Assembly: GCF_001553625.1 (NCBI RefSeq)
Contig: NZ_CP014230.1
Coordinates: 2,356,001-2,420,000, forward strand
Origin: Desulfomicrobium orale DSM 12838
Lineage (GTDB): Bacteria > Desulfobacterota > Desulfovibrionia > Desulfovibrionales > Desulfomicrobiaceae
Length of the DNA stretch: 64,000 nt
Direction of reading: 5' to 3'
Made by a program: the position numbers and the translations under genes
Notes under the pieces: generated by a model
Told to the model about the DNA's origin: nothing
What the model saw: only the letters and a program-made list of their open reading frames with translations
Database searches by the model: none
Shown here: positions 44,539 through 61,130 of the stretch, piece after piece
Layout: every line of letters starts with the position of its first letter
Position numbering within the stretch: the first letter of the stretch is position 1

Positions 44539-45368
44539 GTTCAGGCCTCATTAATTGAGATAGAAAATGAGGGAAGCCGCGAGGCACAGAGCTGAAAAGA
44601 AGGTATGCGCGCAGCGGTCATAACGCATGGCTATTCTCCGCCAGTCCTTGATCCTGCCAAACATGATCTCGATCTTGTGCCGCTGTTTATACAGATTTTT
44701 ATCGTAAGAGACGGGTCTCTTTCGGTTCTTTCCGGGAGGGATGCAGGGCGTAATGCCTCTGGCGAGCAGGGCATCACGGAACCAGCCGGCGTCGTAACCA
44801 CGGTCCGCCAGAAGCTCCCTGGCCTCAGGTAAAGCACATAAGCAAGGCGGCTCCCTTGTAGTCGCTTACCTGGCCTGCCGTGAGCTTCATGGCCAAAGGC
44901 CTGCCGTGGCCGTCGCAAACAGCATGGAGTTTGGAGTTCAGACCGCCCTTTGTGCGTCCGATGCAGCGGGAAAGAGCCCCTTTTTGAGCAAGCTTGCGGC
45001 GGTACGATGCGCCTTGAGGTGGGTTGCATCGATCATCAATCGTCCATCTTTTCCCGCTGTTTTTGCCAATTCGGTAAAAATATTGTTGAAGATGCCCATC
45101 CGGCTCCAGCGCAAAAAACGATTGTACAGTGTCTTGTACGGGCCATACTCGCGCGGCGCATCTTTCCACTGCAGGCCATGTTTGATGACATAAATGATGC
45201 CGCTGATGACTTTCCGGTCATCGACCCGCGGAATACCATGTGAACGTGGAAAGAAGGGCTTGATACGTTCGAGTTGTCCGGCAGAAAGGTAGAAAAGTTG
45301 GCTCATGGCGTCCTCCCTGAGCACAACTAACCAGATTTCCTGATTTTTACAATTAATGAGGCCTGAGC
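44539..45368 (-). mobile_element. IS5-family element A, left copy (830 bp, inverted)
   Basis: Terminal inverted repeats of 19 bases (GTTCAGGCCTCATTAATTG at the left and GCTCAGGCCTCATTAATTG at the right end, read inward) with one mismatch. Flanked by TTAG on the left and CTAG on the right, the YTAR target of the group. It carries one transposase on the minus strand. Nearly identical to the copy at 46127-46957 but in the opposite direction; the copies differ by one indel and a few substitutions. Confidence 0.9.
44551..45306 (-). pseudogene. Transposase of element A, left copy (frameshifted)
   Basis: The first frame (MSQLFYLSAGQLERIKPFFP, 44938-45306, 122 residues) continues by a -1 shift at the slippery A-AAG-GGG (about 44977-44985) into the DDE part (GRTKGGLNSKLHAVCDGHG). 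That frame then stops at MCFT-TGA; the rest (LPEARELLADRGYDAGWF to CLAASVIFYLN) lies in another frame, as if two bases (GC) were lost in MCALPEA. The Y-2-R-3-E-6-K signature (YKQRHKIEIMFGRIK) is intact. The second break is not a normal programmed shift, so I call it broken. Confidence 0.75.
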
Positions 45369-45372
45369 CTAG

Positions 45373-46122
45373 GGCGTGTTTGCAAACTATTTGATCCAAA
45401 TCATTGAAGCTGCCAGGTAATTGAAAAAGCATTCAACAAGGTGCCGTTCCTTATAAAGATGCTGATCATACTGACGAGGTGTTTTACGATTTGAGCGTGG
45501 AGGAATAACTACGGTACAGCCTCTTGATTCAAGGAGTTGAACCAATGGCTCGCTGTCATAGCCTTTATCGGCAATAACAGTGCAATCACGAACCCTTTCA
45601 AGTAATTGCGGCGCAACACTGATATCCGCGCATTCACCTCCTGTAAGGAAAAACGATACAGGATTGCCGAGCGCGTCTACCTGTGCATGCAGTTTGGAGG
45701 TAAAACCTCCTCGACTGCGGCCCAGAGCTTGTCTGTGCTGCCCCCTTTTGCGCCAGCCGAATGTTTGTGGGCATGGATGTATGTACCATCAACCATCACC
45801 GCTTCGAGATCGGGGTCAGACGCCAGAGCGAGAAAGACTGCTTTCCAGAATCCTTTTATCTGCCAACGCCGAAAGCGGGAATACACGGCATTCCATGACC
45901 CGTACTCTTCCGGCAGGGCCCTCCAGGGAGCCCCGGTGCGCAGCAGCCAGATGATTGCATTTATGAATGTTCGTTTATCTTTGGCCGGACGGCCGCCTTT
46001 GGGTGAACCCTCGAGCGGCAGAACGGGCTCAAGCCGTTGCCAGGTTTCATCGGAAATGTCAGTATAGCACATGTCCAAAAGCTACACCAATCCACGCTGG
46101 TTATAAAGTTTGCAAACACACC
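45373..46122 (-). mobile_element. IS5-family element B (750 bp) between the two A copies
   Basis: Ends GGCGTGTTTGCAAACT and GGTGTGTTTGCAAACT (one mismatch, read inward). CTAG lies directly on both sides (45369-45372 and 46123-46126). It has a different transposase from element A. It is shorter than the 830-bp neighbours because of a deletion in the transposase gene. Confidence 0.88.
45387..46078 (-). pseudogene. Transposase of element B, with internal deletion
   Basis: ORF A (MDMCYTDISDETWQRLEPVLP, 45677-46078) carries the DUF4096-like N-terminus and the first aspartate (MVDGTYIHAHKHSAGAKG). ORF B follows by -1 slippage on GCA-AAA-GGG-GGC (45741-45749): GGFTSKLHAQVDALGNPVS, ADKGYDSEPLVQLL, YKERHLVECFFN. 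There the sequence jumps to YLAASMIWIK and ends. The usual 20-25 residues after the catalytic glutamate, including the lysine of the Y-2-R-3-E-6-K signature, are missing in frame. The enzyme is therefore probably dead. Confidence 0.75.
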
Positions 46123-46126
46123 CTAG

Positions 46127-46957
46127 GCTCAGGCCTCATTAATTGCCAAAAAGCAGAAAATCTGGTTAGTTGTGCTTAGGGAGGACGCCATGAGCCAACT
46201 TTTCTACCTTTCTGCCGAGCAACTCGAACGTATCAAGCCCTTCTTTCCACGTTCACATGGTATTCCGCGGGTCGATGACCGGAAAGTCATCAGCGGCATC
46301 ATTTATGTCATCAAACATGGCCTGCAGTGGAAAGATGCGCCGCGCGAGTATGGCCCGTACAAGACACTGTACAATCGTTTTTTGCGCTGGAGCCGGATGG
46401 GCATCTTCAACAATATTTTTACCGAATTGGCAAAAACAGCGGGAAAAGATGGACGATTGATGATCGATGCAACCCACCTCAAGGCGCATCGTACCGCCGC
46501 AAGCTTGCTCAAAAAGGGGCTCTTTCCCGCTGCATCGGACGCACAAAGGGCGGTCTGAACTCCAAACTCCATGCTGTTTGCGACGGCCACGGCAGGCCTT
46601 TGGCCATGAAGCTCACGGCAGGCCAGGTAAGCGACTACAAGGGAGCCGCCTTGCTTATGTGCTTTACCTGAGGCCAGGGAGCTTCTGGCGGACCGTGGTT
46701 ACGACGCCGGCTGGTTCCGTGATGCCCTGCTCGCCAGAGGCATTACGCCCTGCATCCCTCCCGGAAAGAACCGAAAGAGACCCGTCTCTTACGATAAAAA
46801 TCTGTATAAACAGCGGCACAAGATCGAGATCATGTTTGGCAGGATCAAGGACTGGCGGAGAATAGCCATGCGTTATGACCGCTGCGCGCATACCTTCTTT
46901 TCAGCTCTGTGCCTCGCCGCTTCCGTCATTTTCTATCTCAATTAATGAGGCCTGAGC
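46127..46957 (+). mobile_element. IS5-family element A, right copy (831 bp)
   Basis: Bounded by the same inverted repeats as the left copy, here perfect (GCTCAGGCCTCATTAATTG at both ends, read inward), and flanked by CTAG on both sides (46123-46126 and 46958-46961), a perfect 4-base target duplication. Transposase on the plus strand. Confidence 0.9.
46190..46945 (+). pseudogene. Transposase of element A, right copy (frameshifted)
   Basis: Same arrangement as the left copy: frame one MSQLFYLSAEQLERIKPFFP (46190-46558), slippery A-AAG-GGG within 46511-46519, then the second frame stopping at 46669-46671, then a third segment LPEARELLADRGYD to FYLN ending at 46945. The same missing two bases occur here, so both copies descend from an already damaged parent or were copied from each other. 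GGGAGGAC precedes ATG. Confidence 0.75.
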
Positions 46958-47155: not shown

Positions 47156-47551
47156 TTACAGCAGAAAAAAGATAGCCACAACAACCAGTACGACAACAAG
47201 AATAATGGCCGCAACAACCCATGATCGCTCTTCACCCGCAAACATGGCTCCACCAGTTCCCTTGCCAATCGCCTTCCCAATTTCTTGAGCCTGCCTAAGA
47301 AGTTCGGCTTCCTCTTCATCTTTGAGACGCTGGCCTCGATTGAGGCGGCTCATCTCCTCCAATGCCACAGCATACATCACTCCGCACTTAGGGCACTCGA
47401 ATGCAGAGACGAACTTTTCATCCCACGGCTGGCGCTTGTAGCTACACCGGGGACATGTCTCCAGACGTAGTTTAAGGTTGGGCAGAATTTCTACGATCTC
47501 TTCAATCTCTTCAGCGAGATCTTGAGCGCTGTCTTTTTCAACTTCTTCCAT
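47156..47551 (-). CDS. Tail-anchored zinc-ribbon protein of unknown function
   Basis: 131 residues. An acidic N-terminus, a zinc ribbon with two CxxC pairs (TCPRCSYKRQP and ECPKCGVMYAV, about residues 33-57), a charged helical middle, and one C-terminal membrane helix (VVAAIILVVVLVVVAIFFLL) with no residues beyond. It would sit in the inner membrane with the ribbon in the cytoplasm. Not a known named family to me. It follows the WspR-like receiver by 114 bases and may belong to the same operon. Ribosome site weak. Confidence 0.7.
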   Translation of the reverse strand: MEEVEKDSAQDLAEEIEEIVEILPNLKLRLETCPRCSYKRQPWDEKFVSAFECPKCGVMYAVALEEMSRLNRGQRLKDEEEAELLRQAQEIGKAIGKGTGGAMFAGEERSWVVAAIILVVVLVVVAIFFLL

Positions 47552-47665
47552 ATGTTACTTCGCCCTCATCAATCGATAGCAGGCAGGTTTTTCATTACAT
47601 CCACGATCTGTCTCAGACAAATGTAGTCGGGACAATACCCCACGCATCAAGAAATCTAGGAAAAA

Positions 47666-48232
47666 TTAATCTAAATATGGTGAGAACAAATCTCCACCAT
47701 CCGAGGCAGGTACTGGCTGATTTGTGACTTCCGCATCGGACGTGTTGAAATGCCTCTGGCCACTACGGGCGTTAAGCTTTGTAATGAGTTCATCGCGTTG
47801 ACGCTTGAATATATAGCGTTCAGAGTGGCAGCGAATACGAGCGACAAGTTCTGTCTTATCCGGCAGCTTGATCATATAATCATTGGCCCCCAAAGCGACA
47901 GCCTTTCTTTTCAACTCCGGCTCCTCCCGGGCAGACAGTACGATAAGAGGAATACTGCGGAAATCCTCACTGTTCTTGAAAAATTTAACCATGGTCAGCC
48001 CATTGACGCCAGGCATAACCAAGTCAAGCATAATAACTGTAGGCTGAGCAGTATATGCTTTTTCCAATGCCTTATCTGGTTCCTTACAATAATGAAACGA
48101 TATATCGTGTTCAGTAGAAAGCTTGATACGCATAGCCTCGCCAATCAAAAATTCATCATCAATGAGCAAAACAGAAATTGGAATTTGAGATACATATTCC
48201 TTTGCAAGGGTATCGACTTCTTCTGTATACAT
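47666..48232 (-). CDS. Response regulator, WspR-like receiver without GGDEF domain
   Basis: 188 residues. The receiver (about 15-135) reads VLLIDDEFLIGEAMRIKLS, PTVIMLDLVMPGVNGLTMV with the phosphoacceptor aspartate, VLSAREEP and LGANDYMIKLPDKTELVARI; this wording is characteristic of the WspR diguanylate cyclase receiver. The expected GGDEF output domain is missing: after the receiver only about 50 unstructured-looking residues remain. It starts 2 bases after the kinase stop with GGAAGG six bases upstream, so it is coupled to the kinase. Confidence 0.88.
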   Translation of the reverse strand: MYTEEVDTLAKEYVSQIPISVLLIDDEFLIGEAMRIKLSTEHDISFHYCKEPDKALEKAYTAQPTVIMLDLVMPGVNGLTMVKFFKNSEDFRSIPLIVLSAREEPELKRKAVALGANDYMIKLPDKTELVARIRCHSERYIFKRQRDELITKLNARSGQRHFNTSDAEVTNQPVPASDGGDLFSPYLD

Positions 48233-48234
48233 GA

Positions 48235-51200
48235 TCAACCTTCCTTCTGCACGATATGCACTTTATTTAGATATTCATCCATTTCATCCAGCAGGGCGGA
48301 GATTGCATTGCTATCCTTCTGCACTCCTGCAGATTCAATCTTACTCCCCAAACTTCCGAGATAGTCAAAGCCATATGTACTTCCCAAGCCGCGCTGACTA
48401 TGACCGTGCCGACACACTATCTCATACTGTTTGCTTATCAACGCCTCTCGCATTTCCGATATATTCTTTTGCATGGTTTCCAGAAACAGAGGAATCAATT
48501 CGTAAAGCTCTTTATCTACCGCAACAGTAAAAGACTGCTCTGTTTCCTCCGGCTCCACCGCCGGAGAATCTCCCTCTGGATGTTCCAAGCGAGCAGCAGT
48601 CTCCTCGCCACCATCCTCTGTATCTCCATCGTATATAATATCCACACGCTTCAGGTAATCTTCAAGGATATTCAGTAACTTGCCGAGTTCCTCCACGTTC
48701 TGTCTGTCAGCCGCAACCTGGATATGACTTCCCAGGAAGCTTATGTAGTCGAAGCCGTAAGAGGCGCCAAAACCCTTATGGCTATGTCCGGAACGGTGAA
48801 GTGTGGCAAAATCCTTGTCGGCGAGGGCCTTTCTCATGGAGACCAGATCCTTTTGCATGGCGTCCAGGAGAAAAGGAATGAGCTCGGACATATCCGGTGC
48901 GGCATGCACCACGAAACGACCGGTGGGACTATACAGTGGCGCAACCTCGTCTATTGAGGAAAGCTCCGCATTCTCCTCCGTTTGAATCTTCGGAGTCTGA
49001 CCGGTGGTCATGAATATGGCCAGATGTTTGGCCGCCTCGACAATAACGGCGGTCTGACGTCCCTTGGCGGCCGACTCGATGACTTTGCCGGTCTGGCTTA
49101 TTTCATCGACGGCGTAGGTACTGCCAAGACCTTTCAAGCTGTGCCCGCACCGTTGCAATGTCTGGAAATCATTCCCGGTAATGGCATCGGCGATCTGCGA
49201 CTGAAAATCGTATACCGTCCGCAGGAAAAGCGGCCTCAGTTCCTCCAGTTCCGGATCGATGCGCACGGGCGAATCCACGTCGGACAAACTGGAGGGTTCC
49301 AGCGAGATCGGCTGTGCCGTGGCCGATATTTCGGTCAGCGGAGCATGCTTTCCGGAAAACTGATTCACCACATCGATCAGGTCCTGCTTCTTGATGGGCT
49401 TGGCCAGAAATTCCGTACATCCCGCATCGATGGTCTTCTGCCTGTGCTCCTGAAATGCGTGAGCGGTCAGAGCGATGATGGGGGTCTTATACTCCCTTTT
49501 CTCCTGTTCCCACATGCGAATGCGGCGGGTAGCCTCCAGACCGTCCATAACCGGCATTTCCATGTCCATGAGCACAAGATCAAACGGCTCTTCCGTGAAC
49601 TTCTCCACCGCCTCCTTGCCGTTCTCCGCATGGACCAGAGAAACGTTCATTTTCTTCAGGAAAAGCTCCACCACCCGCCTGTTGGCTTCCACATCATCCA
49701 CCAGCAGCACTTTCTTTATCTGTTTCTGAGCTTCCGCCTCCAGGCTCTGCTGAACCGCCTTCACCGCCTCCTGGACCCGTTCCAGCAGATGGGCATCCCG
49801 ATCGGCTTTCACCACATAAGACAAGGAAGTAAGCTCGGAAATACCGGGGAGAACCTGAGCTATCTCTCCTTCGGATTCCACGACCAGAACCAGATGCGGC
49901 AGGTCCATTCCCTGCCCTATCAAGAGATGTGCGATCTCAAGGGAAGTTTCCCCGTCCACCACACTGTCAATGATGACCGCATGGAAATTTTTCCCCCGCC
50001 GGTCCAATAGGGCATCCACAGCCTGTCCCGGTGTTTTGCGTGTCGTGAATATGGGATTCCAGTCCCGCACCAGACTGGAAATACTTGCCGGATCGGCGGG
50101 GTTGTCTTCAACGATCAGAAGCCGGGTGTCTTCGGGCAGAACACGGCGTACAACATCCTGCAGGAAGCCCTCTTCCGCTGCCTTGACCGCCGTGTCCTCC
50201 GTGAGCGGCAACGCAAAGAAAAAGGTCGTGCCCTCATTGATCTCGCTCTCCACCCATATCCGGCCTCCCATGAGCTCCACGAGTTTCTTGGATATGGCCA
50301 GCCCGAGGCCGGTTCCCCCGAACTCCCGCGTCGTGGAGGAGTCAGCCTGGGCAAAGCTCTCGAAAATGGAGACCAGCTTGGACTGCGGAATGCCGATGCC
50401 GGTATCCTTGACCGAGAAAAGGCAGCAAGAAGAACCGTCCTCCATGGTGGAGGGCTTCACATCCAGAGTTACACCGCCCTGACTGGTGAATTTGATGGCA
50501 TTTCCCAGCAAGTTGATGATAATCTGGCGGATACGTGTCGGATCGCCGATATAACGTTGCGCGAGATCGGATGAAACAAATCGGACCAGCTTCAGATCTT
50601 TTTCTTCCGCCCGATAAGCGAAAAGTTTGGAGACATCGTCTACCAAATCCCGCAGAGAGAACGGAATGGACTCAAGCTTGATCTGCCCCACTTCAATCTT
50701 GGAGAAGTCGAGAATGTCGTTGATGATCCCAAGCAGAAGTTCGCCAGCCGAGCTGAAGGTCTTCACGTACTCGGCCTGTTCCTCGGTCAGATCCGATTCC
50801 TGAAGCATTTCGGCCATGCCCAGGATGGCGTTCATGGGAGTCCGGATCTCATGGCTCATCCTGGCCAGAAATTCACTTTTGGAGCGAGTCGCCTTGTCCG
50901 CCTCGTCCTTGGCCACGCGCAGATCTTCCGCATGCTGGCGCAACATCTGACTGGCTTTTCTCCTGTCCGAGATATCCTCCAGAATCAGAATAATTCCCTT
51001 GCTCAAATCCGCCGGATCGACAGTTTTGGCGGAAACCTGACTCCAGAAGGCCGCCCCGCTCTTTTTACGGAAGGGAAACTCCGCCTGCACGATACCCTGT
51101 TCTGACATCTGCCCTGAAAACTTCTCGATGACTGCATCGGCATCCTGAGCGGAAGCGCACAGGTCTCCCAAAGTCAGATTCGACATTTCCCCAGTCTGGT

Positions 51201-52071
51201 GGCCGAAAATGGAAGCGAATCTCGTGTTGGCCCGGATTATTCTGTAGTCTCCGGACAGAACCGCGATGCCAATCAAAGAGTTGTCAAATATCGCCTGCAG
51301 TTCGTTATATGCACTGTTCAGATCCTCGGTACGTGCCTCGACCTTTCTCTCCAGAGTTCTGTAGGCATCCCGCAGGTTACGGCTCATATCGTTGAAGCCC
51401 TGGGCCAAAACACCCAGTTCGTCTCTGCGGCGGTCCAGCGTAGTGGTGACAAACTCTCCCTTGGAGAGTGTCTGGGTCAGCATGGACAGGTTGATTACCG
51501 GCAGAATGAGCTGACGATTCAAGAAGACATAGAGAAATACAGTAATGACGCCAAGCACTACCGCGAATGCGGCGACCAGTCTGATGGTACTGTATTTTAC
51601 TTCTTCTCTGGCCTTGTTGATGAACATTCCCAGTTTTACTTTTCCAAGTATTGTATCTCCGGCGACAATGTCCTTTTCCATAATCATGACATCGTCTGAA
51701 CTATATGCGGCAGCGATATCACTCCGGGTTTGACCGTCCCGGACCTCTTTCTGCAACAGAGGATTACCCTGCGCATCCAAAATCTGGCAGTATGCCACCA
51801 ATGGAGAATACTCGACCTTGGCGGCCAGCTCTTCCAGAAAGTAATAACTCCCCCGCTGCATGGGCACGGCACTGCTTTCCGCAACCATCCCAACCTGCTG
51901 CGTGCCCTGGCTTCTGATTTCATCCATGAGGAAGTTAAGCTGGGTCACATAAATGAAATATCCCAGGGCGAAAAAGCAAAGCACCAGAATGAGCTGTACC
52001 CCGAGATGTATTTTGAATTGAAGCAGGTCGTAAAATGCTCTTTTTCTTTCCATATGTTTATCCATATTCAT
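48235..52071 (-). CDS. Hybrid sensor histidine kinase with two receivers and three tandem Hpt domains
   Basis: 1278 residues. Two membrane helices (about 22-42 and 163-185) bracket a 120-residue periplasmic sensor. Then HAMP (187-240), a PAS domain (258-372), HisKA with H407 in [10 protein letters not shown], HATPase with NLLGNAIKF, DTGIGIP and GTGLGLAIS, a diverged receiver (650-770, possible D702), a canonical receiver (787-905, D836 in LMDMEMP), and three Hpt modules with histidines at 977 (GHSLKGLGS), 1096 (GHSHKGFGA) and 1224 (GHSQRGLGS). The Hpt units are clearly internal repeats. Such an enzyme can run a full phosphorelay; the target may be the two lone receivers next to it. Confidence 0.92.
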   Translation of the reverse strand: MNMDKHMERKRAFYDLLQFKIHLGVQLILVLCFFALGYFIYVTQLNFLMDEIRSQGTQQVGMVAESSAVPMQRGSYYFLEELAAKVEYSPLVAYCQILDAQGNPLLQKEVRDGQTRSDIAAAYSSDDVMIMEKDIVAGDTILGKVKLGMFINKAREEVKYSTIRLVAAFAVVLGVITVFLYVFLNRQLILPVINLSMLTQTLSKGEFVTTTLDRRRDELGVLAQGFNDMSRNLRDAYRTLERKVEARTEDLNSAYNELQAIFDNSLIGIAVLSGDYRIIRANTRFASIFGHQTGEMSNLTLGDLCASAQDADAVIEKFSGQMSEQGIVQAEFPFRKKSGAAFWSQVSAKTVDPADLSKGIILILEDISDRRKASQMLRQHAEDLRVAKDEADKATRSKSEFLARMSHEIRTPMNAILGMAEMLQESDLTEEQAEYVKTFSSAGELLLGIINDILDFSKIEVGQIKLESIPFSLRDLVDDVSKLFAYRAEEKDLKLVRFVSSDLAQRYIGDPTRIRQIIINLLGNAIKFTSQGGVTLDVKPSTMEDGSSCCLFSVKDTGIGIPQSKLVSIFESFAQADSSTTREFGGTGLGLAISKKLVELMGGRIWVESEINEGTTFFFALPLTEDTAVKAAEEGFLQDVVRRVLPEDTRLLIVEDNPADPASISSLVRDWNPIFTTRKTPGQAVDALLDRRGKNFHAVIIDSVVDGETSLEIAHLLIGQGMDLPHLVLVVESEGEIAQVLPGISELTSLSYVVKADRDAHLLERVQEAVKAVQQSLEAEAQKQIKKVLLVDDVEANRRVVELFLKKMNVSLVHAENGKEAVEKFTEEPFDLVLMDMEMPVMDGLEATRRIRMWEQEKREYKTPIIALTAHAFQEHRQKTIDAGCTEFLAKPIKKQDLIDVVNQFSGKHAPLTEISATAQPISLEPSSLSDVDSPVRIDPELEELRPLFLRTVYDFQSQIADAITGNDFQTLQRCGHSLKGLGSTYAVDEISQTGKVIESAAKGRQTAVIVEAAKHLAIFMTTGQTPKIQTEENAELSSIDEVAPLYSPTGRFVVHAAPDMSELIPFLLDAMQKDLVSMRKALADKDFATLHRSGHSHKGFGASYGFDYISFLGSHIQVAADRQNVEELGKLLNILEDYLKRVDIIYDGDTEDGGEETAARLEHPEGDSPAVEPEETEQSFTVAVDKELYELIPLFLETMQKNISEMREALISKQYEIVCRHGHSQRGLGSTYGFDYLGSLGSKIESAGVQKDSNAISALLDEMDEYLNKVHIVQKEG

Positions 52072-52108: not shown

Positions 52109-52519
52109 TCATGGCGCCGCCAGCACCGAAGTCACCGCATCCAACAGTTCTTCCCGTTTGATGGGTTTGCTCAGACACTGCTTGGCGCCCATGAGGCGGG
52201 CCCATTTCAGATAATCCGTGGCCCCTCCTCTGCCTCCGGCGGACATGGCGATAATCCGGATTGCACTGTCCTCTTTGCGCAGTTCCCGGATAATCTGGAT
52301 GCCCTCCTTGTCGGGCATGATGAGATCTGTGATGATCAAGTCAAAAGATTGGCTCCGCTGCAGGCGCAACCCCTCATCGCCATCCCCTGCCTGTTCGACA
52401 TCGTAACCGGCGGAAAGCAAAATTTTGGCTAGGGCCAGACGCATCAAAGCGTCGTCATCAATGATCAAAATCCGCGGTCTGTCTGTCTCTAACTGCTTTA
52501 TCTGGGTAAAATCACTCAT
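52109..52519 (-). CDS. Single-domain response regulator
   Basis: 136 residues, a receiver alone. ILIIDDDALMRLALAKIL has the acidic pocket, DLIITDLIMPDKEGI the phosphoacceptor aspartate, AMSAGG the switch position and CLSKPIKREEL the conserved lysine. It shares one base with the upstream PstS/OmpA gene (TAATG) and lies 37 bases before the hybrid kinase. It may be a diffusible acceptor for the Hpt domains (inference). Confidence 0.9.
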   Translation of the reverse strand: MSDFTQIKQLETDRPRILIIDDDALMRLALAKILLSAGYDVEQAGDGDEGLRLQRSQSFDLIITDLIMPDKEGIQIIRELRKEDSAIRIIAMSAGGRGGATDYLKWARLMGAKQCLSKPIKREELLDAVTSVLAAP

Positions 52520-54252
52520 TATTTAATCCACACCTGGATACGACGGTTTCTTTCCCGGCCACTACGGGTCTTGTTGGGTTCCATGGCTTCTTCTTCCCCA
52601 ACAGCAAGAACCATGACATTATCGATTCCACTGTTTCTCATACGCTTTGCCACCACCTCCGTCCTCTGTCGTGAAATGGCCAAGTTAGAGGCGTAACTCC
52701 CGGCGGAATCGGAAAATCCGACCAGAATTGCTTTTTTCCCTGCATGTTCCGGAGATTTGAGCAATTTTATCATCTCTTCGAAAGCAACCTCAGACTGCTT
52801 ATCTAGTCTGGTGCTGCCAAATTCAAACCATAAAACCAGGGGCAGCCTGGTTGCGCCGGAAATAGCCTCCCAGTACGGTTCCAGCACCTTTCGCCGCACC
52901 GCTTCGGAAACAACTTCACGGCCGACCTGGTCCAAAGGGGGCAGCGAGCCCGTTCCGGCCAGACGCTGCGACATCAGGGACCCGGCATCCGAATCCACCA
53001 CTCCGGCACCGGAGCCCTGAATTCCATTTCCGGGTCCACCGGCAATACTTTTCATGCTGACAAAACCATACCGGGCGACCAGCTCCTGCCCGCTGGCACT
53101 TTGTGCCATACGAATAAAGTCTCGCGCATACACATTCTTGGATTTGCTCAGCTGATACAGGTAAAGATCCCGAAAAGCGGGATAGGTATGCGAACGCACA
53201 GATTCCGGAGTAGGAGCCACGGCTTCGGATCCGGCATCACCGCCGACCGGCATCACCCGGCACTGGTTGGCGAAAGCGATGCTGCAAAAACCTATGGCGT
53301 GGGGGTCCTCCGAAACAAAGTCGGACATCATGGAATGCACGTCCACATCCCTCACGGCGGCCGCATATGCCTTCCCGCCCATGAACACCTGACGGACCAG
53401 ATGTCTGGCCCCGAAACTGTCCCGCAAGGCAAAAACCTTGATGGGGTTGGAAGAACCGCCGACCTGATCCCAGCTGGTGATCTCCCCGCGGAATATTTTC
53501 CCGACATCGCTCACAGTCAGGGACTGCACAGGGTTATCCTTATGTACGACAATAGCCACTGCGTCCATGCCGATCTGATGTTCGGCTTCAGGAGACAGAA
53601 TATTTTCGGGGAAAAGAGCGGCTTCTTCCGGTGACGGCCGGTTGGCGGCCATCGCTATGTCGCACACACCGTTTCGCAAGGCCGAAAAACCCCACGAAGT
53701 GCCGTCGCCCTTGATGCGAATGGTCCGGATTTCGCGGCTGGAGTAAAAAATACCCTGCACGGAGATGTCGTCTCCGTCTTTGCCCGGCAATCGGCGCACC
53801 TCATTGGCCCCCAGATGGGTCAGATAATACTGGGCCAGTTCCGGAGCGAGACGATTGGACATGGTTGTCGCGCCTTCCAGCTCCAGAATGATTTCCTCCG
53901 AATAGTTTGCCGGCTGATACTGCCCTTTGAGTTCCGCATTGAATTCCCCATTTTTCAGGACGATCGGAGACGGCGCTTCCCAGCCGGGAACATTCTTGAA
54001 TTCCACAAGCTGCAAGGCTTCGGATTGTGCCTCTCCGGCACCCTGCCACTGGGTGACCACACGCCACTGGGCGCCGTTACGAGCGGCTTCTTCCGGCTCT
54101 ATGACCACACTCCGCACGAGGCGAGGCGAGCCGAGGGGAAAAAGTTCCGGCTTTATCGCGAACAACATGCCGCATCCAATGCCAACCAAAATCAAGAGCG
54201 CCCAAAGAGCGCCGCCGGTCCTCTTGCTTGAATCCGAATGTGTACCAGCCAC
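52519..54252 (-). CDS. Membrane-anchored PstS-like binding protein fused to OmpA domain
   Basis: 577 residues from a GTG at 54252 with GAGGAG eight bases upstream. An N-terminal membrane anchor (about 14-34), a middle region of about 90 residues, a phosphate-type periplasmic binding domain (ELEGATTMSNRLAPELAQYY to MAQSASGQELVARYG) and a C-terminal OmpA peptidoglycan-binding domain (LWFEFGSTRLD, GFSDSAGSYASNLAISRQR, RSGRERNRRIQVWI). The PstS part has the GDGTSWGFSALRNG and AVAIVVHKDNPV segments of the family. There is no pst transporter nearby. It looks like a periplasmic sensor or adaptor tied to the cell wall, possibly for the neighbouring kinase. Confidence 0.87.
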   Translation of the reverse strand: MAGTHSDSSKRTGGALWALLILVGIGCGMLFAIKPELFPLGSPRLVRSVVIEPEEAARNGAQWRVVTQWQGAGEAQSEALQLVEFKNVPGWEAPSPIVLKNGEFNAELKGQYQPANYSEEIILELEGATTMSNRLAPELAQYYLTHLGANEVRRLPGKDGDDISVQGIFYSSREIRTIRIKGDGTSWGFSALRNGVCDIAMAANRPSPEEAALFPENILSPEAEHQIGMDAVAIVVHKDNPVQSLTVSDVGKIFRGEITSWDQVGGSSNPIKVFALRDSFGARHLVRQVFMGGKAYAAAVRDVDVHSMMSDFVSEDPHAIGFCSIAFANQCRVMPVGGDAGSEAVAPTPESVRSHTYPAFRDLYLYQLSKSKNVYARDFIRMAQSASGQELVARYGFVSMKSIAGGPGNGIQGSGAGVVDSDAGSLMSQRLAGTGSLPPLDQVGREVVSEAVRRKVLEPYWEAISGATRLPLVLWFEFGSTRLDKQSEVAFEEMIKLLKSPEHAGKKAILVGFSDSAGSYASNLAISRQRTEVVAKRMRNSGIDNVMVLAVGEEEAMEPNKTRSGRERNRRIQVWIK

Positions 54253-54282
54253 GCGCCACACTCCTCACAGATACGGATTGAA

Positions 54283-54774
54283 TTATCTCGAGAGAACGTA
54301 TTTGCCGAGCGCAGCATCGAACAGTTTTTCGTCCACGAAGCTGGCTCCAACTCTTTGTCCCCGAACGGATTCCACCTGAATTTTTTTCTCTATCTTCGTT
54401 TTTACATCATCATCCAGAAAGAAACGCAGAACAAGCATATCTCCCCGATTTGGAGCGTTTCCTTCACACAGAAGCCCGGCGCCTGTCAGGGAAAGATCCT
54501 TTACATGGACTCTTCCCATACTCGTCTCCTGGTTCGATGCATTTAACAGCTCGCCCTCAAGAGAAGTTTCCTTGCGGAAATATTGCCGAAAATTGAAAGA
54601 AACAGTAAATTTTCCGCTGCATCTGGTACATGTCGCACCGACACTCCAGTGGGCAACATCTTTTATTTTTTCCACATTGACCTTTTTTTCCAACCTGCAA
54701 TGCGGGCAAGAGAAGATTACCGAATCTTTCTTGCGGATAAGCACTTCCACTGTCGGATTGTTACTGTCGCTCAT
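54283..54774 (-). CDS. PilZ-domain protein with N-terminal zinc ribbon
   Basis: 163 residues from ATG 54774. The N-terminal half has two CxxC pairs (FSCPHCRLEKK and TCTRCSGKF), a probable zinc ribbon. The C-terminal half is PilZ-like: RQYFRKE gives the RxxxR element and DLSLTGAGLLC the (D/N)xSxxG element that bind cyclic di-GMP. It is 30 bases from the PstS/OmpA gene and is probably the first gene of the signalling operon. The start lacks a strong ribosome site; the open frame to 54855 is an alternative. No cyclic di-GMP synthase is in the window. Confidence 0.82.
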   Translation of the reverse strand: MSDSNNPTVEVLIRKKDSVIFSCPHCRLEKKVNVEKIKDVAHWSVGATCTRCSGKFTVSFNFRQYFRKETSLEGELLNASNQETSMGRVHVKDLSLTGAGLLCEGNAPNRGDMLVLRFFLDDDVKTKIEKKIQVESVRGQRVGASFVDEKLFDAALGKYVLSR

Positions 54775-55107
54775 AATTATCATCATCAGGGATTTGAAAA
54801 ACAGCCGCAAAAAATGCCTCAACGGCTCAATCCCGCAGGAGAGTGCCGCACACATCCCCGCAGGCCGGACTCATGATAGGCGCAAGCGTTTCAAATATCC
54901 AGCAATCTGTTGACGATCCTGACAAAACTCAAGGCGCAGCGCAATCCATTCATTCAGGACCGCCATGGGCCGCACGCCGCACAATCGCTGAACCGACGCG
55001 TATCAATGGACGTTGTTATCAGACTGGACCGGCTGAAGGCTTTGGGATATGTCCACTCGCGCCTGTACGGCCCGAAAAAAGACCATCCCCCGCCGCTTTG
55101 GAAGCTA

Positions 55108-56901
55108 ATGGAAAACAGCGCCCGAACAAGCTTTCTCCTCCCCGTCCTGCCTGCTTTTCTTCTGTGGATGGCATGTTGCTTCCTTCCGATGCCGGCAGCC
55201 GCCGCGCCTGTGGAGTATACGGTAGAAATTCCATCTCTCCCGGACGATCTGGACGATCTGCTGCGCTCGGTTTCGGACAGCGTGGCGTTGATCGGGTCTC
55301 CGCCCGATACTGCCGGACTGCTGCGGCGGCGCATGGAAAAAGACCGGGAAAACTTCGCCGAGGCCCTGAAATCCAGAGGTTACTTTGGGTCTGAAGTCCT
55401 GGCCAGTCTGGAAACAACAAAAAGCCCGCACGTCATCCGCTTTCACGTTGAACTGGGCCCCTGTTTTATCTTCGACGCACCCGCGCTTGAAATCATTCCT
55501 CCGGATACGGGCCTGGGTGCCCTGCTCCGCCCGCTTCTCAAATCCATCAAAGCAGGCTCCGGGTACCAGGCCGCGCTGATCCCGGACACGGAAACGGCCA
55601 TGCTCGATGAACTGCGGAAAAACGGCTATCCTTCGCCCTCAACCGGTGCGCGGCGGGTCGTTGCGGACCATGCCACGGGCCAGGTGCACGTGCGGTTCAT
55701 CATACGCCCCGGCGGCCGGGCCGTGTTTGGCCGGACGCATATCGAAGGTCTGGAGCGCCTGAACGAGGAATTCGCGGCCAGACACATTGCCTGGAAAGAA
55801 GGACAGCTTTTTGACATCCGCAAAGTGGACGACACCCGGACGGAGCTTATCCGCACGGGCCTTTTCCGCTCGGTGCGCATCGAAACGGAGCACGCGGAAA
55901 ACGCGGACACGGCCGACATGTGTCTGTCGCTGCTCGAAGCGCCCCGGCGTACCGTGCGTGCGGGGCTGTGGTATTACTCCGATCTCGGACCAGGCACAAG
56001 CGCAGGCTGGACAAACCGCAATCTGTTCAGAGGAGGCCAGGAGCTGCATTTTGACGCGGAAATCTCCCGGAATCTGAACAGCGCGAGCGCCGCCTTCGTG
56101 CTTCCCGCCATGTGGCACCCGGACCAGACTCTCGGCCTGCAGGCCAAGTATCAGTCCGAGAACACGGACAGCTACGACAGCGTCAATCTTGCCTTTTCAG
56201 GCATCATGCGCCGCAAATTTCCGGACCATCTGCAACTGGGATACGGTCTGGCCTACCGACTGTCCGAGGTGAAAAAAGAAGACACCCGGCGCTTCCACCT
56301 GCTTTCGGCCCCGCTTATCGCGGAATACACGACCGTAACGGAGCCGCTGGACCCGTCCTCGGGTCTGGCCCTGTCCGCCCGGGCGGAGCCCTTCACGGAT
56401 CTGAAACTGCGGGATTCCAGCTTCGTTTCCTGGAATATCGCTGCGCGGAGCTATTGGCCGCTTCTGAAGGACAACTCCCTCGTTCTGGCCGCCCGCGGCC
56501 ACATCGGCGTGCTGGCCGGGGCCAGTCGCGACAACGTCCCGGAGGACATGCTTTTGTATGCGGGCGGAGGAGGGTCCATCCGCGGATACGCCTACCAGTA
56601 CGCCGGAGATCTGGATGAGGAAGACAAGCCTCTGGGGGGCCTGAGTGCGGTCGATTTCTCGGCGGAGCTGCGACTGCGGTTCAGCCGGACTTTCGGATTT
56701 GTCGTCTTCGGCGATGGCGGCGGCGCGTTCTCCAAAAGAAATCCGCTGGACGTGTCCTCGTTTTTCTGGGGCGCCGGAACAGGCATCCGTTACTACACAC
56801 CTATCGGCCCCCTCCGTCTGGATGTGGCCGTTCCGCTGAAGAGACGCAGCGGCGTGGACGCACCCTTTCATTTTTATGTCAGCCTCGGGCAGGCCTTCTG
56901 A
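55108..56901 (+). CDS. tamA: TamA, Omp85-family outer-membrane assembly protein
   Basis: 597 residues from ATG 55108. Signal peptide (LPVLPAFLLWMACCFLPMPAAA), three POTRA domains (to about residue 290; EALKSRGYFGSEVLASLE and ELIRTGLFRSVRIE), then a 16-strand barrel whose end carries the Omp85 motifs GGGGSIRGYAYQ (the lid-lock RGY) and VVFGDGGGAF, and an aromatic C-terminus (VSLGQAF). With TamB it moves phospholipids and autotransporters across the periplasm. A longer open frame from 54910 lacks a signal peptide at its start. Stop and tamB start share TGATG. Confidence 0.9.
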   Translation: MENSARTSFLLPVLPAFLLWMACCFLPMPAAAAPVEYTVEIPSLPDDLDDLLRSVSDSVALIGSPPDTAGLLRRRMEKDRENFAEALKSRGYFGSEVLASLETTKSPHVIRFHVELGPCFIFDAPALEIIPPDTGLGALLRPLLKSIKAGSGYQAALIPDTETAMLDELRKNGYPSPSTGARRVVADHATGQVHVRFIIRPGGRAVFGRTHIEGLERLNEEFAARHIAWKEGQLFDIRKVDDTRTELIRTGLFRSVRIETEHAENADTADMCLSLLEAPRRTVRAGLWYYSDLGPGTSAGWTNRNLFRGGQELHFDAEISRNLNSASAAFVLPAMWHPDQTLGLQAKYQSENTDSYDSVNLAFSGIMRRKFPDHLQLGYGLAYRLSEVKKEDTRRFHLLSAPLIAEYTTVTEPLDPSSGLALSARAEPFTDLKLRDSSFVSWNIAARSYWPLLKDNSLVLAARGHIGVLAGASRDNVPEDMLLYAGGGGSIRGYAYQYAGDLDEEDKPLGGLSAVDFSAELRLRFSRTFGFVVFGDGGGAFSKRNPLDVSSFFWGAGTGIRYYTPIGPLRLDVAVPLKRRSGVDAPFHFYVSLGQAF

Positions 56902-59900
56902 TGTTTCGAAGCAAACTTTTCCGCGCCGCCAAAAGGGCCGCATATGTCATGGCCGCGCTCACGCTTCCGGCCTGCTTGGCCCTGCTCTGGCTCTTCGGTA
57001 CGGCGGGCGGCCGCCAGACCCTGCTCGATCTGGCCGATGCGGCCACAGCCTCGGAAAATTTTCATCTGCGGGCCCGGGGCCTGAACCTGGGAAGGGAATG
57101 GACGCTTGAGTCGCTGCATCTCTCCGACGCATCGGGAGTCTGGCTGGAACTGCATCAAATCCGGCTGCAGCCAAGGCTCCGGTCTCTTCTGAAGGGACAC
57201 GTCCATCTAGAGCATTGCGGCATCGTCCACACCATTCTCCACCGTCTTCCGGAGTCGGAAGAGGGTGCCACCGACACGGAAACGTCCCTGCCGCCGGTAC
57301 GCGTCGCGCGAGTCGATCTGGACCGCGTCGAACTGCGGCCGGAAGCTCTGGGGCAGGCGGCGGACCTGTCGGTCCGGGGCGAGCTGGAACTGAACCCGCA
57401 CGAAGGGCGGACCAATCTGTCCATCATCCGTCTGGACCGGTCTCAGGATGCCCTGCATGTCTCGGGGAGCTTTCAGGAACATCCGGAACAGCTCGCCCTG
57501 GACGTACGCATGCACGAGGCCCCGGAGGGCCTGCTGCATACGCTCCTCGATCTGGAACAGCTGTCCGGAAACGCCACCCAGGGAGTCACTCTGAGTCTGC
57601 GTGGACAAGGTAGCCTGACAGACTGGCCCCTGTCTTTGTCCCTGCGTCTGGCCGGGGCTCTGGAGCTGAACGCCACCGCCGCCCTGAAACTGACCGAAGA
57701 GCCGGAAGCGGACCTGCGCGGACAGGTCCGGCTGGGCACGGCATTGCAGGATACGGCCCGGCTGACCGACCCGGACATCGGCTTCTTTGCCCGCTTATCC
57801 TGGTTGAAGGACGAACTGCGCCTGACCCGCCTGCGTGTGGAGAATGCGGCGGCCGCCATGGATGGAAACGCCACATGGAACCAGGCCAGGGAAGAGATGC
57901 GGGCCGCCGTACGCATCGAAGGCCGGGACATCGCCCCGCTGCTTCCCCCGGACATTTCTCCCGGCCCGGCCGCTTTGAATGCCATGCTCCTGTTCTCGGC
58001 GGAGGGTCTGCGCCTCGACGCGGATATTGTGGCCAAGGACTGGAACATGAGCGGATACCGGTTGAGTGCTGCCAACATAAATGCTTCCCTTGCGCGCGAC
58101 TCCGGCAGCGACTGGGATTTCCGCACAGCCTTCGCCATCCACGCCCCGGAGCTGCCGCCCGACCTGCAGGCCATCTCCGGTACCGCCACGGGCAAGGGAA
58201 GCGGCACCACCTGGCGGCTGGACAACCTGGAGGCGGCAACCCGGACCGTCAGCCTGCGCGCCAGCGGCAAGCTGGATTCCAATCTGAACAGCAGCGTCAC
58301 GGTGGTCATGCGTGATTTTTCCGCGGCGTCCAAAATGGCCGTCTCCGGACGCGTGGCGGCCTCCGCCGACGGCCGTTTCACTCCAGAAGGCCCGGCCTTC
58401 CGTGGACGGCTCGCCCTCCATGCGGAAGGCATTTCCGGACTGCCGCCGGAAGCGGCCCAGCTTGTGGGTCCAAATCCCGGTCTGCATGCGGAACTGTTCC
58501 TCTCTCCTGAAAAAATGCATGTGCGCGATCTGAAATTGCGCGGCAATACCCGCCTTGCCGGAAACGGAACCTTCGAGCCGGAGACAGGTGCATTCTCAAG
58601 CGTCTTCGACGCGGTTTTCCCGGAACTGTGCGTCGCGGATATGCATCTCGCCCCCGGAGCCGCCGCCCAGGGCCAGGCCGCCGGCAACAGCACTGATCTC
58701 GGCCTGGACCTCAGGGCCAGTGCGCCCATGTTTTCCGCCGGACAATTCCACATCACCAACGCCACGGCATCCGCCAGAATTACCGGCCCGCACCGGCCCG
58801 AGTACGATCTGCGCATCCGGGCTCTGACGGAGGGCGAACCTGCGGAATTCGCGGCGCGCGTTCTCATGGACGGCCCCGCCATTCTTCTGCGTAACGCCAC
58901 ACTGAGCCTGCCCCAGAACAAACTGACGGTTACAGGCACTCTGAACACGGACAGCAACATATTTCAGGGTCATGGCCATCTTGACAGCGCAAGTCTCGCT
59001 CCTCTGGGCCGACTGGCCGGGCAGGATATGGACGGAAAGCTCACGCTGTGCACGGATTTTCTTGAGGAGAAAAACCGGCAGGCCGTCCGCATCGAAGGAA
59101 ACGGCAATGCCCTGTCCATGGCCGGGATACATATCGGCCACGCGGCCCTGCACGGCTCCACGGCTCTGCCCGATCCTCTGCGGAGTGCGGACGCGGACCT
59201 GCGGCTCGGGCATATCCACCGGGATTCTCTGCATCTGGACGCCTGCCGGATACAGGCGCGGAGCCGCAATGACGGCGTGCATCTCGTCTTCGGGCTGGAC
59301 CAGAACGCCACCCAGAGCGCGATCACTGGAAAGGCCCTCGCCTCCTGGGATGAAAGAAGGCTTCGGGCCTCCCTGAACTCCCTTGTGGGCACGTTGCTGG
59401 GTCAAAAGCTCCGGCTGGCCGCACCCGTGAACATCACCGTGGAGTCGGAGCGTACCGCCTGGACCAGAGGCGAGTTGCATTTCGGACCGGCGGTTCTGTC
59501 CGGTTCGGGAAACATCGCCGCAAATGGCGTGGACATCGATGCCAGCCTTGAAAACATGGACCCGGCCCTGTTCCGGTTGCTGCGGGATGATCTGCCCCAG
59601 GGAGATATCCAGGCGCGGCTGGCCGTCCGGGGGGCTCCGGAAAATCCGGATGCCAGGATGGATGTGCGGGGGCGGAACATCCGCATATCCGCTCCCGGCC
59701 GGAAAGACCCCCTCACGGTGGATGTTTCGGGACATGCGACCCTGAACCCGGGCCGGTTCAGGAGCACTTTGACTCTGAATGGACAGGACGGTGCGATGAC
59801 CGCAGACGCGGAACTTTCCGTTCCCGTGCGAGGTCCCGTGACCGCTCTTGATATCGCCGGTGACGCACCCCTCACGGGACGCATGCGGGGCGGCCTCGAC

Positions 59901-61130
59901 CTCACCCTGTTGCCGCATCTGCTGCTGCTCGATGATCAGTCGCTTTCCGGCCGGGCAGTCATGGACTTCCGCCTCGGAGGGACCGCATCCACCCCCACCT
60001 TGAGCGGTACGGCACACGTCGGCGACGGGCGCTACGAAAATTACCGCTCCGGCACCAGACTCGAATCCATCAGCGCCACCGCCACGGCCCGAGACGCAGA
60101 GGTAGATTTCATTCTGAACGCTACGGATGGCCGCCAAGGCACGCTCAGTGCCCAGGGTTCGGCAGACCTGAAGCCCCTTTCCTATGTCTGCGATATTCGC
60201 CTGGACCGGTGCGAGCTCGTCAACACGGACCTGATCCGCAGCACGGCGGATGGCCGTCTGCGCGTGTGGGGAAACGGCGGGGCGGCGGCCGTAAACGGCA
60301 CTCTGAAACCAGACCCGGCTTACGTCCAGCTGCCCTCCGACATGTCCGGCGTAACCCGCGTCGAAGTAGAGGAAATCAACGTTCCGGGCGGAGATACGAG
60401 CAGCGGAAAAGACTCCGGCATGCCCGTGAACCTGAACCTGCGGGTCGACGTGCCCACCCGGCTCTTCGTCCGGGGCCGGGGGCTGGATTCGGAGTGGTCC
60501 GGGCGGCTGGACATCACCGGTCCGCAGACGGCTCCGTCGGTCAGGGGGCAGATGAACCTGCTGCGCGGCCGCTTCGAGTTTCTCGATCGCATGTTCGACC
60601 TGACCAAGGGAACCATCTCCTTAAGCGGAGAAACCCCGCCCAATCCGTTTCTGGACATTCTGGGCGAATGCCGGGTCATGGATACCCTGATTCAGGTCCG
60701 GATCAACGGTCCGGCCAGAAATTTCAAACTGGCCCTGTCCTCCGCCCCGCCGCTGCCACAGGACGAGTTGCTGTCCATGATTCTCTTCGGCCGTTCCCTG
60801 CGCGAGATATCCCCGCTGCAAGCCGTCCGTCTGGCCCAGGCTGCGGCCGCCCTGACCGGAGTCGGAGGAGCGGGGATGGGTGTCTTCGATTCCATCAAGG
60901 CCGCTCTGGGGCTGCAGGAAGTGGATATCGGCAGGGATGACGAAGGCAATACGGCCGTCGGCATCGGCGGCTATGTGGGCGGAAAATATTATGTGCGGAC
61001 CCAAAGCAGCGTCTCCGGGCAGGACAGGACGAAAATCGAGATTCAGCTTTCTCCGAAAATCAGTGTGGAGACGGAAATCGGCTCGGACTCCCGTCAGGGT
61101 GGCGGTGTGAACTGGCGCAAGGACTATTGA
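56901..61130 (+). CDS. tamB: TamB (DUF490), inner-membrane-anchored translocation protein
   Basis: 1409 residues, usual size for TamB. One N-terminal membrane helix (VMAALTLPACLALLWLFG), a very long beta-repeat groove of AsmA/TamB type (repeated LDADIV, ASGKLDS, GNGTFEP patterns), and the conserved TamB domain in the last 350 residues (GQMNLLRGRFEFLDRMFDLT, LLSMILFGRSLREISPLQA, ending in SDSRQGGGVNWRKDY). It forms a lipid-conducting bridge to TamA. Translation is coupled to tamA by TGATG. Confidence 0.92.
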   Translation: MFRSKLFRAAKRAAYVMAALTLPACLALLWLFGTAGGRQTLLDLADAATASENFHLRARGLNLGREWTLESLHLSDASGVWLELHQIRLQPRLRSLLKGHVHLEHCGIVHTILHRLPESEEGATDTETSLPPVRVARVDLDRVELRPEALGQAADLSVRGELELNPHEGRTNLSIIRLDRSQDALHVSGSFQEHPEQLALDVRMHEAPEGLLHTLLDLEQLSGNATQGVTLSLRGQGSLTDWPLSLSLRLAGALELNATAALKLTEEPEADLRGQVRLGTALQDTARLTDPDIGFFARLSWLKDELRLTRLRVENAAAAMDGNATWNQAREEMRAAVRIEGRDIAPLLPPDISPGPAALNAMLLFSAEGLRLDADIVAKDWNMSGYRLSAANINASLARDSGSDWDFRTAFAIHAPELPPDLQAISGTATGKGSGTTWRLDNLEAATRTVSLRASGKLDSNLNSSVTVVMRDFSAASKMAVSGRVAASADGRFTPEGPAFRGRLALHAEGISGLPPEAAQLVGPNPGLHAELFLSPEKMHVRDLKLRGNTRLAGNGTFEPETGAFSSVFDAVFPELCVADMHLAPGAAAQGQAAGNSTDLGLDLRASAPMFSAGQFHITNATASARITGPHRPEYDLRIRALTEGEPAEFAARVLMDGPAILLRNATLSLPQNKLTVTGTLNTDSNIFQGHGHLDSASLAPLGRLAGQDMDGKLTLCTDFLEEKNRQAVRIEGNGNALSMAGIHIGHAALHGSTALPDPLRSADADLRLGHIHRDSLHLDACRIQARSRNDGVHLVFGLDQNATQSAITGKALASWDERRLRASLNSLVGTLLGQKLRLAAPVNITVESERTAWTRGELHFGPAVLSGSGNIAANGVDIDASLENMDPALFRLLRDDLPQGDIQARLAVRGAPENPDARMDVRGRNIRISAPGRKDPLTVDVSGHATLNPGRFRSTLTLNGQDGAMTADAELSVPVRGPVTALDIAGDAPLTGRMRGGLDLTLLPHLLLLDDQSLSGRAVMDFRLGGTASTPTLSGTAHVGDGRYENYRSGTRLESISATATARDAEVDFILNATDGRQGTLSAQGSADLKPLSYVCDIRLDRCELVNTDLIRSTADGRLRVWGNGGAAAVNGTLKPDPAYVQLPSDMSGVTRVEVEEINVPGGDTSSGKDSGMPVNLNLRVDVPTRLFVRGRGLDSEWSGRLDITGPQTAPSVRGQMNLLRGRFEFLDRMFDLTKGTISLSGETPPNPFLDILGECRVMDTLIQVRINGPARNFKLALSSAPPLPQDELLSMILFGRSLREISPLQAVRLAQAAAALTGVGGAGMGVFDSIKAALGLQEVDIGRDDEGNTAVGIGGYVGGKYYVRTQSSVSGQDRTKIEIQLSPKISVETEIGSDSRQGGGVNWRKDY

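Follow-up and report, generated by a model that had tools for sequence, protein, structure and literature searches.

A PstS-OmpA fusion protein paired with a sensor kinase family in Desulfomicrobium, a candidate envelope-fixed co-sensor

Why would a protein with the fold of a phosphate-binding protein carry a membrane anchor and a peptidoglycan-binding domain, and why is its gene placed among those of a phosphorelay? This question is raised by a locus of Desulfomicrobium orale DSM 12838 (NCBI RefSeq assembly GCF_001553625.1, contig NZ_CP014230.1), which we analyzed within a stretch of 64,000 nucleotides (positions 2,356,001 to 2,420,000 of the forward strand), hereafter called the window. A sequence-only reading of the locus had proposed an anion-binding protein used for sensing and not for transport. 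For the majority of sensor kinases no signal is known, and sensing by way of a binding protein is considered to be under-recognised (PMC6321045).

The fusion gene lies on the reverse strand of the window (52519..54252) and encodes 577 aa from a GTG at 54252. The open frame reaches 54261, and counted from this first GTG (52519-54261) it has 580 aa. The start at 54252 is the better of the two because it is preceded, at a distance of 8 nt, by a GAGGAG ribosome site and because the orthologues start at about the same residue. Residue numbers given here follow the 580-aa frame, from which 3 has to be subtracted to obtain the numbering of the 577-aa protein. The domains and cassette genes given below with coordinates are all on this same strand.

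The chain begins with a putative membrane anchor (54148..54210, around residues 18-38), identified by its hydrophobicity and conserved in position among the orthologues, where the structural model has low confidence. It is followed by a small beta-rich region (53914..54114, around residues 50-116, consensus QWRLVSQWQ...VEFK.IPGWE.P.PV.L), which is conserved in Desulfomicrobium and Thermodesulfomicrobium and has low pLDDT and a PEGA-like look by eye only. The PstS-fold domain (53047..53901, residues 121-405) comes next. It matches the Pfam family PBP_like_2 (PF12849) over residues 181-384 (E 2.8e-23, 83.5 bits, cut-off 27) and the PstS-family model TIGR02136 with an E-value of 1.7e-36, the 125.9 bits of this second match being below the cut-off of 206.6. 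In the AlphaFold2 model, pLDDT in this block is mostly above 90, and residues 124-404 superpose on the phosphate-binding protein 4gd5 (VIA-align, Z 29.6, 2.1 A over 241 residues). The PstS fold is thereby predicted to be intact. The chain ends with an OmpA-like domain (52522..52833, residues 477-580), which matches PF00691 in Pfam over residues 479-573 (E 2.7e-14, 53.7 bits, cut-off 27.2). In the 14 rows of our alignment of this domain, D518 and R533, which we take to be the diaminopimelate-binding residues of OmpA domains, are invariant, and N526 is also kept. The profile matches and the hydrophobic helix thus bear out the earlier description of an anchor, a PstS-type domain and an OmpA domain in one chain. 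A chance match and an artefact of annotation or frame were ruled out, since the fusion orthologues are full length across Desulfomicrobium.

The gene is the second of a five-gene cassette. The first one encodes a Zn-ribbon/PilZ protein (54283..54855) whose c-di-GMP motifs RxxxR and DxSxxG are intact, as they are in 16/16 relatives examined. After the fusion comes a receiver-only response regulator (receiver 1, 52109..52519, assigned by its Pfam domain and by locus comparison), whose ATG is overlapped by the fusion stop by one base (TAATG). It precedes a hybrid histidine kinase of 1278 aa (48235..52071) with the layout TM-sensor-TM-HAMP-PAS-HisKA-HATPase-(degenerate REC)-REC-Hpt-Hpt-Hpt, in which Pfam recognises HAMP, PAS, HisKA, HATPase, REC, and Hpt and in which three Hpt histidines are conserved (H977, H1096, and H1224). 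The last gene, which overlaps that of the kinase by 4 nt, encodes receiver protein 2, a REC domain with a short tail (47666..48238). The overlap with a receiver gene and the large adjacent kinase had also been described correctly in the sequence-only reading. Where a Desulfomicrobium locus is uncut by contig ends, it keeps the order PilZ, PstS-OmpA, receiver, kinase, receiver. Thermodesulfomicrobium has the same five-gene order, but its PstS protein has no OmpA domain. A two-gene version is found in two genomes (G020 and G004), where PstS-OmpA is accompanied by a 784-aa kinase with the same sensor, and where there is no Hpt, no PilZ, and no ATPase.

In 13 of the relatives' loci, the next gene after the cassette encodes a GAF-MshEN-T2SSE ATPase. 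ATPases of this kind are motors of type IV pili or type II secretion, and this neighbor suggests a pilus or secretion motor as the output of the system. The gene is missing from the cassette of the window, so that it points only weakly to such an output, and any pilus output in this strain would need another ATPase. It is cleanly gone from between receiver 2 and the gene of a small protein that has a Zn ribbon and a C-terminal membrane helix (47156..47551), a gene which in the relatives comes after the T2SSE ATPase gene; about 115 bases are left there (47551-47666). Close to this site, at 44631-46865, two inverted IS5-like transposase copies with identical translations flank another transposase ORF. 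On the other side of the cassette, a TamA/TamB-like gene pair occupies 54910-61130 on the forward strand, and in most of the Desulfomicrobium loci with enough flanking sequence, such a pair is near the cassette.

The sensor domain of the kinase (51577..51942, around residues 44-165) sits between two membrane helices and is predicted to be periplasmic. Its model is PAS/Cache-like, with domains of WalK, CdgS9, and CitA as best matches; this fold label is provisional because the model was built from three rows only and is of middling quality (pLDDT 69.7, pTM 0.50). We searched residues 1-260 of the kinase in the 60 nearest genomes and found 19 places, all in Desulfomicrobiaceae, of which 19/19 (raw count) are beside a PstS-like gene. 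The pairing of the PstS-like gene with this sensor family is exclusive there. The earlier expectation of a constant pairing with Hpt kinases therefore stood as to the pairing and failed as to the Hpt domains: since the kinase of the two-gene pair has none, the constant element is the sensor domain and not the Hpt kinase.

In a class-wide search, more distant kinases whose sensor is homologous came to light in another family of the order, where they belong to two genera. With a profile made of the sensor only (residues 44-165), these second-family kinases match at E 1e-9 to 1e-24, and no other kinase matched in the local set. The first 16 of their loci all have a Bmp/PnrA-like gene (PF02608) upstream on the same strand, which is within 130 bp in 14 cases. 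Extending the search to the whole order brought in paralogues and a third genus. Among 11 more kinases that we inspected, eight have a Bmp gene and three do not. Hence, in three genera of the second family, this gene is found just upstream of 24/27 inspected kinases (raw count; the kinases L196-L211, L219-L225, and L230 are directly downstream of it). In a paralogous set of these kinases, the gene of a small Hpt protein also adjoins. Two weak outliers (L227 and L228) are chemoreceptors with a sensor-like region beside SBP_bac_3 or PBP_like_2 genes, which is suggestive only. Judging by these neighborhoods, the constant element is the sensor domain together with some periplasmic binding protein, taken from two unrelated families, and the partner changed as the pairing stayed. 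Because homologous sensors adjoin the unrelated Bmp/PnrA-like protein, the sensor has the look of a port at which binding proteins dock. Against a co-sensor role of the fusion stand the three second-family kinases with no adjacent binding-protein gene and, in the five-gene cassette, the receiver gene that lies between fusion and kinase.

To assess the ligand site of the fusion, we compared 14 cassette rows (11 of Desulfomicrobium and three of Thermodesulfomicrobium) with 56 wider-family fusions. In the window, L279 and F283 (53413..53427) stand where the anion-binding loop R..xSGT has its R and its S; they align (HMMER) with the arginine and the serine of this loop in the phosphate-binding proteins 1TWY and 4GD5. 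Residue 279 is a leucine in 14/14 cassette rows, for an arginine in 46/56 wider-family fusions, and residue 283 is a phenylalanine in 13/14, for a serine in 56/56. The site of N207 (53641..53643) is occupied by an arginine in 55/56 wider-family fusions and by N, H, Q, G, or Y in 10/11 Desulfomicrobium rows, and the three Thermodesulfomicrobium rows keep the arginine. The two-gene pair keeps the canonical site, with R, R, and S. When a tree is built without these ligand columns, a branch with support 100/99 still sets the cassette rows apart from the others. Compared with the nearest relative, the gene has an overall dN/dS of 0.087, and its PstS domain one of 0.09, which indicates that the gene is under purifying selection and rules out a pseudogene. 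Given this low ratio and a fold that is predicted to be intact, the change of ligand residues is a conserved replacement and not decay. The domain is thus a PstS fold without its phosphate-gripping residues. A loss of ligand-binding residues, which the sequence-only reading had named as an outcome contrary to its proposal, is what the cassette versions display.

Our preferred explanation, which we hold to be somewhat probable, is that the fusion is a dedicated envelope-fixed co-sensor for the adjacent kinase, built on a phosphate-binding protein without a phosphate site. It would probably feed signals into the phosphorelay instead of carrying phosphate. The PstS fold and the family match could also be those of an ordinary binding protein for ABC transport with an OmpA domain by coincidence, but this is extremely improbable. 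There is no pstC, pstA, or pstB among the listed ORFs of the neighborhood, and neither permease nor ATPase genes of a transporter are nearby. In the whole genome (2,783,374 bp in a single contig), none of the four best PstB-like matches is inside the window, in agreement with the earlier remark that pstCAB is not nearby, and the other three matches to the PBP_like_2 family sit elsewhere. With the membrane and wall anchors, the lost ligand residues, and the constant kinase partner, a role in transport was ruled out. The general claim of sensing and not transport was thus upheld by the pairing in all 19 places and by the other kind of binding protein that adjoins homologous sensors. The more specific claim, that phosphate or another oxyanion is still a ligand of the PstS domain, from which the ligand state is relayed to the kinase, has become unlikely. 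It accords with the confidently modelled fold, with the contact residues that remain (T132/T133, T188, and G284), and with the full motif kept in the two-gene relatives and most wider-family fusions, and oxyanion sensing through such proteins has precedents in PstS-CtpL and AioX-AioS. A changed anion site would also fit the one cassette member that retains S283 (G009) and the several members with T141 retained and, at the position of S38, a threonine (E. coli PstS numbering). However, the cassette versions have replaced both arginine positions (207 outside Thermodesulfomicrobium) and S283, two of the three by hydrophobic residues, and the change at 279 and 283 is fixed across two genera and hence not recent.

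A degenerate ligand site is also in line with an envelope mechanosensor, in which the PstS fold serves only as a spacer or contact surface and the OmpA domain reads the distance or strain between membrane and wall. The anchor and the OmpA domain in one chain, with the wall-binding residues kept, agree with this idea. Yet the Thermodesulfomicrobium version has the anchor, the PstS domain, and the kinase but has lost the OmpA domain, so that wall binding is not essential to the partnership, which argues against wall contact as the only input. The conservation of L279 and F283 also speaks more for a new, specific ligand or for a locked conformation than for a simple spacer, and we regard pure mechanosensing as quite unlikely. 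OmpA domains are frequent anchors of envelope machines, and with the T2SSE ATPase and PilZ genes in the cassette, the fusion might instead be an output, namely a component of a pilus or secretion machine that is anchored to the wall and encoded in the controlling operon. This is very unlikely, since the pairing tracks the kinase sensor and not the ATPase, the two-gene pairs have neither PilZ nor ATPase, and homologous kinases have Bmp-type partners. A broader proposal can be made tentatively: in this sulfate-reducing order, the sensor would be a general docking port whose partner was swapped during evolution, being of the Bmp type in one family and PstS-OmpA in another. The partner of Desulfomicrobium and Thermodesulfomicrobium would afterwards have lost its ligand site and turned into a reporter of envelope state, which drives a phosphorelay with several Hpt domains towards a pilus or secretion motor. 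The partners found on one kinase sensor form a natural series, namely Bmp-type, canonical PstS-OmpA, site-less PstS-OmpA, and site-less without OmpA. Comparing its members would separate the inputs that a binding protein gives by ligand, by docking, and by wall contact.

If the fusion is a co-sensor of the kinase, as we favor, the following mechanism can be drawn. The N-terminal helix would hold the protein in the inner membrane, with the PstS-fold body in the periplasm next to the PAS/Cache-like sensor of the kinase, which it would physically contact, and with the OmpA domain gripping the peptidoglycan. Kinase activity would then be set by the conformation of the fusion, by its position relative to the wall, or by an uncharged ligand in the altered cleft; the input could accordingly be such a ligand, a locked state, or the wall position. 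The phosphoryl group would pass from the kinase histidine to the receiver of the kinase, then to the three Hpt domains, and finally to the two receiver-only proteins. Together with the c-di-GMP-type PilZ protein, these receivers would act on the assembly ATPase of the relatives' cassette, whose kind serves type IV pili or type II secretion. The phosphorelay may thus control a pilus or secretion motor, and by gene order only, the likely target is the assembly ATPase of one or the other, together with c-di-GMP signalling through PilZ.

Binding-protein-coupled receptors have several precedents, among which LuxP-LuxQ, TorT-TorS, XylFII-LytS, and PstS-CtpL (PMC6321045), as well as AioX-AioS (PMC5908839). 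Features of binding-protein-coupled kinases were found here, i.e., a conserved adjacent binding-protein gene and a predicted periplasmic kinase sensor. As in LuxP-LuxQ, TorT-TorS, and XylFII-LytS, a periplasmic binding protein would work with a sensor kinase, whose sensor is predicted to be PAS/Cache-like in our case. Unlike in these systems, the binding protein would be fixed to membrane and wall and has lost the ancestral ligand residues, and the sensor family has binding proteins of two unrelated kinds as partners, depending on the genus. The arsenite-sensing AioX-AioS-AioR system (PMC5908839) also uses a protein of an oxyanion-binding family for sensing, with its gene beside that of the kinase, but AioX is structurally PhnD-like with a working oxyanion site, whereas the present protein is PBP_like_2/PstS-like, fused to OmpA, and has its site replaced. 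In the phosphate chemotaxis of Pseudomonas aeruginosa (PstS-CtpL, PMC6321045), a PstS protein indirectly activates a membrane receptor; there, in contrast, PstS binds phosphate and the receptor is a chemoreceptor and not a kinase. For the output side, the Pil-Chp system of type IV pili is a precedent for Hpt domains, two receivers, a PilZ protein, and an extension ATPase working together (PMC12632253). The likeness lies in the several phosphotransfer domains, the two receiver-only proteins, PilZ, and the ATPase, the latter in the relatives' cassette. However, the kinase here is a HisKA/HATPase hybrid, which is not of the CheA type, and the cassette genes include neither CheW nor a chemoreceptor; pilus control would be read from gene order only. 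Our literature search for PstS-OmpA fusions with kinases found no relevant paper. Taken at the level of genes and alignments, the system appears to be a real, conserved, and undescribed form of binding-protein-coupled kinases.

The fusion itself is not new. PstS-OmpA fusions are found in Acidobacteria, Gamma- and Alphaproteobacteria, Verrucomicrobia, Desulfobulbia, and others, presumably annotated in public databases as "phosphate ABC transporter substrate-binding/OmpA family protein". They have the same domain order as the cassette protein and are homologous to it in sequence, but they keep the ligand motif and generally have no adjoining kinase gene. Among the parsed loci that contain a fusion gene, only L094 has a kinase within three genes, which rules out that all fusions pair with kinases. 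Homologues scattered without kinases, which had been expected to speak against a sensing role, are thus the rule in other phyla but not in the fusion's own lineage, where 19/19 kinases with this sensor adjoin a PstS-like gene. Because of this widespread occurrence away from kinases, the pairing is specific to the lineage and not a property of the fusion.

In L100 and L167, the PstS-OmpA module is in one chain with a Ser/Thr protein kinase domain, and in L061 and L071 with a receiver-like domain and DUF4388. These four proteins are apparently one-piece transmembrane sensors. With cytoplasmic N-terminal signalling domains in several fusions, the module would be used for signalling elsewhere too, there with its ligand motif kept. 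This suggests that what is usually annotated as a part of a phosphate transporter is often a sensory module. Other wider-family fusions have N-termini that are Zn-ribbon-like by eye, and three of them (L165, L166, and L169) are encoded beside a tubulin-like gene, which is Tubulin_2 (PF13809) in L169 and tubulin-like by likeness in the others.
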